Assembly: GCA_009845425.1 (NCBI GenBank)
Contig: VXZQ01000009.1
Span: forward strand, 227,714-291,713
Length of the DNA stretch: 64,000 nt
Source of the DNA: Holophagales bacterium
Lineage (GTDB): Bacteria > Acidobacteriota > Thermoanaerobaculia > Multivoradales > Multivoraceae
Direction of reading: 5' to 3'
Shown: piece by piece, positions 11,138-63,826 of the stretch
How positions within the stretch are numbered: the stretch's first letter is position 1
How the letters are laid out: every line of letters starts with the position of its first letter
The notes under the pieces: model-generated
Databases searched by the model: none
Seen by the model: the letters and a program-made list of their open reading frames with translations, nothing else
Told to the model about the DNA's origin: nothing
Translations under genes and position numbers: made by a program

Positions 11138-11201
11138 CCAGAAGCCGGCGCTCTGCGCCGGATGCCGGCCAGAAGGCCGGCGCACCGACAGACGCACCCA
11201 G
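11138..11201. repeat. GGTGCGC palindromic repeat copy
   Basis: GCCGGCCAGAAGGCCGGCGCACCGACAG…GCACCCAG plus second palindrome GCCGGCGCTCTGCGCCGG. Confidence 0.85.
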
Positions 11202-19301: not shown

Positions 19302-19380
19302 CGCGGCAGGAGTCCAGAAGCCGGCGCTTCGCGCCGGGTGCCGGCGGGGACGCCGGCGCACCCAGGTCCTGCCGCGCTAG
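19298..19380. repeat. Inverted repeat between convergent genes containing a GGTGCGC-family palindrome
   Basis: CTAGCGCGGCAGGA (19298-19311) and TCCTGCCGCGCTAG (19367-19380), perfect 14 nt arms. Confidence 0.9.
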
Positions 19381-34258: not shown

Positions 34259-34411
34259 GGTGCGCCGGCCTTCTGGCCGGCTGCCGCCGGAGGCGGCCCA
34301 GGTAGCGCGCCGGCCGGAGGCCGGCTCCGCGTTGTGGCGTTGCTGCCGAAACTCGCGCACGCCGCTTCGCGGCAGCGCGCCTGATGCCGGCCAGAAGGCC
34401 GGCGCACCCAG
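34259..34411. repeat. Paired inverted GGTGCGC palindromic repeats
   Basis: GGTGCGCCGGCCTTCTGGCCGGC at 34259-34281 and its exact reverse complement at 34386-34408. Confidence 0.92.
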
Positions 34412-42187: not shown

Positions 42188-42333
42188 GGGTGCGCGGGTC
42201 TGCCATCCGCGCGCCCGATGACGGGCCCACGGACTGGGACGCTGGTGGCGCGGTGACGCGCCACCAGGGTGCTGACCCGCTGCCGCCAAAGGCGGCCAGA
42301 AGACTGCGCCGGCCGAAGGCCGGCTCCGCTGTG
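42188..42333. repeat. GGTGCGC repeat copy (degenerate first stem)
   Basis: CTGGGTGCGCGGGTCTG…GACCCGCTGCCGCCAAAGGCGGCCAGAAGACTGCGCCGGCCGAAGGCCGGCTCC. Confidence 0.8.
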
Positions 42334-44768: not shown

Positions 44769-44922
44769 CTGGGTGCGCGGGTCTTCTGACCCGCCCCGGG
44801 CGGAGCCGCGAAGCGGCGCAGCCCGAACAAAGTAGCCGCCGGCCTCCGGCCGGCGACGATACTGTCCGCCGCCTACGGCGGCAGCGGGTCAGAAGACCCG
44901 CGCACCGACCCGCGCACCCAGT
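44769..44922. repeat. Composite multi-hairpin repeat with 23-nt inverted arms
   Basis: GGTGCGCGGGTCTTCTGACCCGC at 44772-44794, exact reverse complement at 44884-44906, internal hairpins between. Confidence 0.93.
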
Positions 44923-55893: not shown

Positions 55894-55981
55894 CTGGGTG
55901 CGCGGGTCTTCTGACCCGCCTGTCGGTGCGCCGGCCTTCTGGCCGGCATCAGGCGCGACGCCGCGGAGCGGCGAGCGCGAG
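55894..55981. repeat. Two tandem GGTGCGC palindromes
   Basis: CTGGGTGCGCGGGTCTTCTGACCCGCCTGTCGGTGCGCCGGCCTTCTGGCCGGCATCAGGCGCGACGCCGCGGAGCGGCGAGCGCGAG. Confidence 0.93.
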
Positions 55982-55987
55982 CCTTCA

Positions 55988-57340
55988 CTACTCGCGGCGA
56001 AGCGCCAACCGCCGATACTCATCCTCCAAAACCCACAACCGATCCTGCCCCCACGTGGCCACCGACCCCACCCGAAACGACGGCACACCCCAAAGCCCGA
56101 GATCGAACAACTCCTCCCGGTTCCGCTCCGCCTCCTCCCGCCAGGCCGGATCGTCCAGGTAGCCACGACCCTCGCCCCAGTCCAGCCCGGCCTCCTCAAC
56201 GATCCGCCGCAGCCCCCGGTCCGACCCCGCATCCACCGCCTGCGAGAACACCAGCGTCATGAACGAGCGGAAGTACTCGATGCCCCGCCCCTGCTCGATC
56301 GCCCAAGGCAACAGCGAGTAGCCGCACTCGACCGGCTTGCCGACCGGGTCCGAGATGGGCCCGAACTGAACGCCGTTCCGCCGCGCCTCGCGCGCCGCGT
56401 CGAGCAGGATGTAGACGCGCTTCGACCGCTTCACCGGCAGACCGCGCATGACCATCGGCAGGACGAACCGGATCCGCAGGTTGACCCCGAACGCCTCGGC
56501 GAGCCGGATCACACGCTCGGTCGAGATCCACGTGTACGGGCTCCGAAACGACGCAAAGAAGTGGAGGTCGGGAAGGTCCGCCGCTTCGAGAGCGTCGGCC
56601 GGAACCGGCTCCTCCAGCAGCCGCGGCTGCGCGTAGATCAACGTCGGTGCGCCGGCCCTCTGGCCGGCATCCGCCGCAGGCGGAATCTCCGCCCCCAGAT
56701 CAGCCAGCCGCTCCTCCAGATACGCAAGCCGATCAATTCCCCAGGTCCACTCACCACCATAGAAGCAGGTACCGCCCAGATAGTGGCCAAGATCGGCGCG
56801 CCGTTCTGTCCCGGCCCGAAGAGCGACCTCGAGGGCGGCGTCGGTCCCCCTGTCATCGCCCGCTGCGACCGGCTCGCCACTCCACAGAACCTTGCCCAAC
56901 GTGACAGCCGCCTCCAGAGTCGCCGTCGACCCCGGTTCCTCCGGCGCCTCCAACGTCGCCGTCAGTTGCCGCTGCACGCTGAGTACCAGCTCCGCGTCCG
57001 GCGGCTCCGCCGACGTCGCATGGAACCCGGCCTTCTCCGCCAGCCGCCGCGCATCGACCAGCGAGTACGACTCCAACAACGCCCGCGCCGGCGCCGCCCA
57101 GTCTTCCGGCGGCTCGACCAGCCAGGTCACCACCTCAACCTCGTAGCGCGCCTGAAGCTCCACCAGCGCCTGAGCCAGAAGATGCGAGTACGGATCGTCG
57201 ACCTGGTTGAAGAACTCGATCCGGTGCGGCTCCCCCTTGCGCCGGCGTTCCCGCTCCGCGCGGGCCCGCGCCTTGTCGCGCCTCCGCTCGTCGAGGAGGT
57301 GGGTCGAGAACTGCTTCGAGGCGAAGGACTTGATGGACAT
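55988..57340 (-). CDS. Two-domain DsbA/2-hydroxychromene-2-carboxylate isomerase-like protein
   Basis: HRIEFFNQVDDPYSHL and LPDLHFFASFRSPYTWISTERVIRLAEAFGVNLRIRFVLPMVMRG; GLWGVPSFRVG. Confidence 0.78.
   Translation of the reverse strand: MSIKSFASKQFSTHLLDERRRDKARARAERERRRKGEPHRIEFFNQVDDPYSHLLAQALVELQARYEVEVVTWLVEPPEDWAAPARALLESYSLVDARRLAEKAGFHATSAEPPDAELVLSVQRQLTATLEAPEEPGSTATLEAAVTLGKVLWSGEPVAAGDDRGTDAALEVALRAGTERRADLGHYLGGTCFYGGEWTWGIDRLAYLEERLADLGAEIPPAADAGQRAGAPTLIYAQPRLLEEPVPADALEAADLPDLHFFASFRSPYTWISTERVIRLAEAFGVNLRIRFVLPMVMRGLPVKRSKRVYILLDAAREARRNGVQFGPISDPVGKPVECGYSLLPWAIEQGRGIEYFRSFMTLVFSQAVDAGSDRGLRRIVEEAGLDWGEGRGYLDDPAWREEAERNREELFDLGLWGVPSFRVGSVATWGQDRLWVLEDEYRRLALRRE
56643..56690. 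repeat. GGTGCGC repeat copy inside a CDS
   Basis: GGTGCGCCGGCCCTCTGGCCGGCATCCGCCGCAGGCGGA on + strand, read as PPAADAGQRAGAP in the minus-strand protein. Confidence 0.88.
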
Positions 57341-57490
57341 GAAACCTCGTGGGGTGTGGTGCGCGGGCCGGTGCGGTTCGGGAATGGTCATGGGCAGTCT
57401 GCCGGAGTTCCGTCACAGTCACAATCTGCACCCGGGCGCTGGTCTGTTGGGGCACGGAACGCTGTCGCAGCGTCAGCATAGGCTTGCCTC

Positions 57491-61964: not shown

Positions 61965-62034
61965 ACTGGGTGCGCCGGCCTTCTGGCCGGCATCAGGCGC
62001 GACGCCGCGGAGCGGCGAGCGCGAGTTCTTTCGG
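61965..62034. repeat. GGTGCGC repeat copy
   Basis: CTGGGTGCGCCGGCCTTCTGGCCGGCATCAGGCGCGACGCCGCGGAGCGGCGAGCGCGAG, essentially identical to 55926-55980. Confidence 0.93.
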
Positions 62035-63673: not shown

Positions 63674-63826
63674 GTTCTCTAGGTGCGCGGACCTTCTGGT
63701 CCGCTCGGGGGCGAAGCCGCGGAGCGGCGTAGCCCGAAGAATGCGGTCGCCGGCTTCGCCGGCGGCGATTCTGACGTCGCCTTCGGCGGCAAGCGGACCA
63801 GAAGGTCCGCGCACCCAGAGAACGGG
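63674..63826. repeat. Composite multi-hairpin repeat with 34-nt inverted arms
   Basis: CCCGTTCTCTAGGTGCGCGGACCTTCTGGTCCGC vs GCGGACCAGAAGGTCCGCGCACCCAGAGAACGGG (33/34 complementary). Confidence 0.93.

Follow-up and report, generated by a model that had tools for sequence, protein, structure and literature searches.

The stretch analysed here (the window) comprises 64,000 nucleotides of a 4.3-Mb metagenome-assembled genome in 17 contigs (the host genome, G000), one of a group of Acidobacteriota genomes for which isolate names alone let one guess at a marine or sponge origin. On its minus strand, an open reading frame of 467 aa (55988-57391), with the ATG at 57340 (MSIKSF) as its likely start, encodes a protein with two halves, between which lies a short palindromic repeat whose relatives recur in the window:

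The DsbA-fold gene and its repeat

55988-57340, minus strand: gene for a two-half DsbA-fold protein, 450 residues plus stop, from MSIKSF
56688-57340, minus strand: N-terminal DsbA-fold half, no CxxC (hhalign to the C half)
55991-56642, minus strand: C-terminal DsbA-fold half, Pfam DSBA (Pfam match and hhalign)
56643-56687, plus strand: full-length 45-nt type-A REP element within the gene, with the minus-strand translation IPPAADAGQRAGAP
56651-56668: hairpin 1 of this element, 7-bp stem and 4-nt loop (fold)
56670-56684: hairpin 2 of this element, 6-bp stem and 3-nt loop (fold), a module also seen in other copies
55897-55947, plus strand: a type-B copy followed in tandem by a type-A copy, both intergenic, immediately downstream of the DsbA-fold gene
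34259-34408: inverted pair of type A, intergenic (window repeat listing)
44772-44906: inverted pair of type B between genes, the second copy overlapping a called gene end
63682-63815: inverted pair of type D
61969-61991, plus strand: type-A copy, intergenic
11164-11186, minus strand: type-A copy, intergenic
19340-19362, minus strand: type-C copy, intergenic

The preliminary description of this locus had proposed a repeat copy at 56643-56690, inserted in frame at the linker between the two thioredoxin-fold halves of a DsbA-like protein. A repeat is indeed found there, its complete 45-nt unit spanning 56643-56687, and the translation ...YLEERLADLGAE-IPPAADAGQRAGAP-TLIYAQPRLLEEP... is open on both sides, so that the frame is preserved on both flanks. 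The label DsbA-like holds for the fold family, as residues 276-459 match Pfam PF01323 (DSBA; E 3.2e-17), but not for the active site, since neither half carries a CxxC motif, the equivalent places reading FFNQVDDPYSH and FFASFRSPYTW. Because the N and C halves align with each other in a profile comparison (hhalign, 170 columns, E 4.6e-6 as the value for a single comparison), the protein is an internal duplication of a DsbA-type fold, and the same alignment places the insert exactly between the two homologous halves. The expectation that structure prediction would put the insert in a loop is weakly supported: the linker is nearly devoid of regular structure (pLDDT about 25-39) in a model that is itself poor (mean pLDDT 51). 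That a repeat was inserted, in frame, into the linker between the halves is supported.

The core of the element, GGTGCGCCGGCCCTCTGGCCGGCATCCGCCGCAGGCGGA, occupies 56646-56684 on the plus strand and found no match in 100 shuffles. Folded as DNA, both hairpins together reach -16.8 kcal/mol (z -3.25), and as RNA they give a z of -2.40. The full-length type-A unit of 45 nt has the layout GTC-GGTG-CG-hairpin-AT-hairpin-AATC and is found again in intergenic positions. No stop codon interrupts type-A or type-C repeats in any of the six frames, and type B has one frame that holds a stop; translated REPs give short peptides, in many cases with a high content of Ala, Gly and Pro.

A RAYT-associated REP family with a GGTG head

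Four stem types were distinguished, namely A (CGGCC), B (GGGTC), C (CGGCG with a TCCCC-like loop) and D (GGACC). A strict pattern for the family, GGTGCGCSGGYCNTCYGRCCSGC, matches 131 times in the host genome and 8-271 times in each of 21 out of 21 congeners (Acidobacteriota metagenome-assembled genomes labelled Thermoanaerobaculia, Holophagales or Candidatus Multivorans), and it is absent from 39 genomes outside the genus; used as a control, the reversed pattern had no match in any genome searched. Among 104 distinct host copies, taken from stretches chosen with the type-A pattern and hence skewed to that type, 80 are intergenic, 14 overlap a gene end and 10 are internal, the individual assignments being approximate because genes were called with a codon-usage model that had the window as its training set. 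For comparison, gene interiors make up about 78% of the window. The other perfect-stem copies of the window are intergenic or at gene ends, often as inverted pairs. The family thus consists, as REP elements do, of short, high-copy palindromes situated mostly between genes, and these form inverted pairs, three in the window and further ones beside RAYT genes.

In some repeats, a module of 60-70 nt with inverted repeats of its own, e.g., GCGCCCGATGACGGGCGC, stands in place of the hairpin loop. This nested, longer form also occurs in genes, still in frame, in L028, in L026 (a second site of the DsbA-fold protein, see below), in L209/L219 (GT87-like) and at 42189-42230 of the window. Additionally, tandem multiples of the repeat head, in the form of GGTGTC/GGTGCC-like units, frequently adjoin the element (L033, L129, L131, L027), and in proteins they yield GAPT-like peptide runs.

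The host genome carries a Y1_Tnp gene (L097:4911-5534) between inverted pairs of type-B repeats, and the genus yielded 13 such genes from twelve genomes, with repeats nearby at all 13 loci. Each of the 13 encodes the NHVH and RYI..NP motifs, that is, an HUH and a YI..NP signature flanked by repeats. The best NCBIfam match was NF047646 (REP-associated tyrosine transposase) in 4/4 RAYTs tested, three of them above the cut-off and the fourth at 79.3 bits against a cut-off of 80; a phmmer search of the RAYT against PDB sequences returned no match. Given an NF047646-type RAYT and adjoining repeats, the latter are identified as REP elements. The stem type found nearby follows the RAYT lineage: B accompanies the G000-like enzymes, A those of G007, G009 and G013, C those of G001b, G010 and G011, and D those of G008 and G014. 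On the RAYT tree the stem type changes three times, the minimum for four types, and none of 20,000 label shuffles does as well; B, C and D correspond to supported clades, and A is not firmly one clade.

One feature departs from published REPs, in which a GTAG or GTGG tetranucleotide lies 0-2 nt 5' of the hairpin (PMC6006769), the head here being GGTG. The family is therefore placed with the RAYT-associated REPs, as one whose head is a variant, and not with the GTAG REPs. The host genome contains 61 exact type-A copies, yet the only Y1 transposase gene found there belongs to the type-B clade; its type-A copies may be orphaned.

Occupied and empty sites in DsbA orthologues and other proteins

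The DsbA-fold protein has orthologues with 84-94% identity in congeners and 62% in another genus. The linker between the halves (site 1) is covered by 19 congeneric orthologue sequences, 14 of which carry a repeat. This occupant is of type C in place of type A in G006 and G008, lacks hairpin 2 in G003 and G004, and is degenerate in G014. The five sequences without a repeat come from G012, G016, G017, G007 and the second gene copy of G001. The orthologue of G023 (62% identical), a member of another genus and the sole one with a repeat-free genome, also lacks the insert. Hence the proposed check against relatives is passed, the segment being missing from five congeneric sequences and from G023, with the correction that most of the genus shares the insertion. 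In the host, the element took the place of part of an older linker (RRSSGAVESDAP-like in G012) and is not a clean addition. The DsbA gene tree is nearly star-like, so that insertion and loss events are not polarised, and one old insertion with later losses is inseparable on this poorly resolved tree from several insertions.

A second site lies about 70 residues upstream, within the N half, where repeats of type C or A are read in a different frame (peptides SRRGRRRTQ and SRPEGRRTQ). Whole or partial repeats occupy it in eleven sequences, and it is empty in G000, G005 and G018.

In-frame copies are found in genes for unrelated proteins, i.e., DsbA-like, MocA-AKR, GT87-like, VWA and radical SAM; the internal copies that were studied comparatively are located in linkers or loops, and most other copies are intergenic. 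The cleanest insertion case is the GT87-like membrane protein, in which the host shows a gain of 42 nt and 14 residues (..RPDAGQKAGAPTD..) at a site that is empty in G009 and others, including the 97% identical protein of G005. In the MocA-AKR fusion (L097:1658, L131-L137) the repeat is read in frame in the stretch that separates the Gfo/Idh/MocA domain from the aldo/keto reductase domain, as type A in G000, G009 and G013 and as type B in G003, G004 and G011, with none in G006 and G010. An origin of the fusion by the repeat joining two separate genes was rejected, since relatives have the fusion without the repeat. All type-B copies in this linker (L133, L135, L137) read TTCCGA where the usual TTCTGA would place a stop in that frame, a variant present in just 4 of the 21 type-B copies listed for G006; since the three species are related, this is no more than a hint of stop avoidance. 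The linker of the VWA-domain protein harbors types A and B in both orientations and several frames, and here as in MocA-AKR the repeat types are swapped between species. A radical SAM/SPASM protein (L033:1-1464) has a C-terminal tail with two REP copies in opposite orientation and an APTPE repeat run.

Origin of the insert and relation to known mobile repeats

The repeat identity of the DsbA segment, the genus-wide family, its association with RAYTs, the in-frame position, the presence, absence and type changes among orthologues, and the recurrence at other linkers make it very probable that the segment is a RAYT-mobilised REP copy that entered the interdomain linker and is translated as a spacer. 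A RAYT would make insertions through a single-stranded hairpin, and most of those into genes would be purged; copies in linkers or loops would survive because the type-A repeat lacks stops whichever frame is used, and because a unit of 45 nt, or one that has been trimmed, can preserve the frame. Such insertion at large followed by purging would fit the placement of the copies, and the peptide read from the insert probably amounts to a flexible spacer that is selectively neutral. Several points speak against this account: the RAYT of the host is of type B only, whereas its DsbA copy is of type A; the head is GGTG instead of the published GTAG/GTGG; the DsbA gene tree is poorly resolved; and the DsbA copy is very highly conserved at synonymous sites. 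An ordinary Ala/Pro/Gly-rich linker that resembles the repeat by chance is a reading to which we give practically no credence: linkers in this GC-rich genus are indeed rich in A, G and P and variable in length, but the 39-base core went unmatched in shuffles, two sites of the DsbA-fold protein and several other linkers hold the same family in other frames, and the intergenic copies of the 45-base unit already refute it.

Plain neutrality, however, predicts less synonymous conservation than is seen. Among the nine type-A carriers, identity at fourfold sites reaches 98% in the insert but 71% in the remainder of the DsbA gene, and the insert's same-residue codon identity is 97%, against 76% in the rest of the gene, exceeding all 384 other gap-free 14-codon windows; what variation there is falls mainly in the hairpin loop, and the codons immediately flanking the insert vary. 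Either the hairpins are selected or the copies are homogenised. Selection would mean that the translated REP is kept for a DNA or RNA hairpin role at this locus, for instance in the folding of the mRNA, in making translation pause between the two folding halves or in binding a protein. The codon identity, the concentration of changes in the loop and the fold scores argue for such a role, which we nonetheless consider unlikely, because five congeneric sequences lost or never had the insert, G014 keeps a degenerate form, G003 and G004 do without hairpin 2, and an equal identity would result from conversion by other copies or from repeated insertion. Homogenisation, by which gene conversion or re-insertion would keep the insert identical without any function, has a probability a little under even and would refine the account of a RAYT-mobilised REP copy, leaving the REP identity unchanged. 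It is consistent with the different types found at one position (A in most species, C in G006 and G008) and with the swapped types in the MocA-AKR and VWA linkers. It is more likely than hairpin selection because full-length copies, identical or near-identical, exist elsewhere in most congener genomes; for this very reason we rejected an initial idea by which hairpin 2 would be confined to the DsbA locus and conversion thereby excluded. Against homogenisation stand the small number of exact full-length hairpin-2 copies per genome apart from the DsbA one and the fact that most carriers have hairpin 2 and its AAT end fixed at this site.

Cases of mobile repeats within proteins are mostly single anecdotes. 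The present set of about 20 related genomes offers, at several genes, filled sites, empty sites, swapped types and differing frames together with matching transposase lineages, so that comparison can directly test whether such small repeats contribute to the evolution of proteins or are simply tolerated by them. A RAYT-mobilised origin of the DsbA segment would mean that selfish DNA has turned into a harmless, or possibly useful, protein spacer. A bolder proposal, which we regard as doubtful, is that the REP/RAYT family is a continuing source of linkers, its all-frame-open elements re-entering the same linkers and some copies being held by selection on hairpins or spacer; if true, a selfish repeat would be recurrent raw material for protein architecture.

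The family shares with known REP/RAYT (TnpA_REP) systems the short, high-copy, mostly intergenic palindromes, the inverted pairs, the RAYT gene flanked by its own repeat type and the occasional in-ORF copies (PMC3733652, PMC6006769, PMC8266576), and it differs from them in the GGTG head, in having four stem types, paired with RAYTs of their own, in a single Acidobacteriota genus, and in the repeated occupation of the same interdomain linkers. From the same phylum, Solibacter usitatus has about 600 REP-like structures and a class 3 TnpA_Y1 (PMC6006769), likewise with high-copy secondary structures near a Y1 transposase gene; that class bears a Y----Q signature and 'atypical' structures (PMC6006769), whereas the transposase here has the YI..NP motif and matches NF047646. 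RU elements of enterobacteria are also small mobile repeats with open reading frames inside genes, but they measure 103-168 bp (PMC2759123), compared with about 45 nt, two hairpins and a RAYT here.

The preliminary description had likened the insert to Rickettsia palindromic elements, a parallel that is sound functionally, as both are palindromic repeats lying in frame in unrelated protein genes and apparently tolerated, but not by descent. The Rickettsia elements are set apart by their description as another repeat family in another phylum, the present ones being RAYT-linked REPs with a GGTG head in a host not known as an obligate intracellular bacterium. The in-ORF RPE-4 and RPE-6 of R. conorii have been classed with the CGTC REPs, which are without known transposase (PMC3733652). 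Intragenic REPs have thus been seen before, in Rickettsia as well as in other genera. Di Nocera et al. (2013) reported them in many species, the R. conorii in-ORF elements included, and suggested that such insertions may be neutral since they lie in linkers or loops (PMC3733652). To judge from the literature consulted, what is new is a REP family with a GGTG head, the presence of four RAYT-linked types of it in one Acidobacteriota genus, and the comparative evidence that repeats have entered the same linkers in frame more than once.
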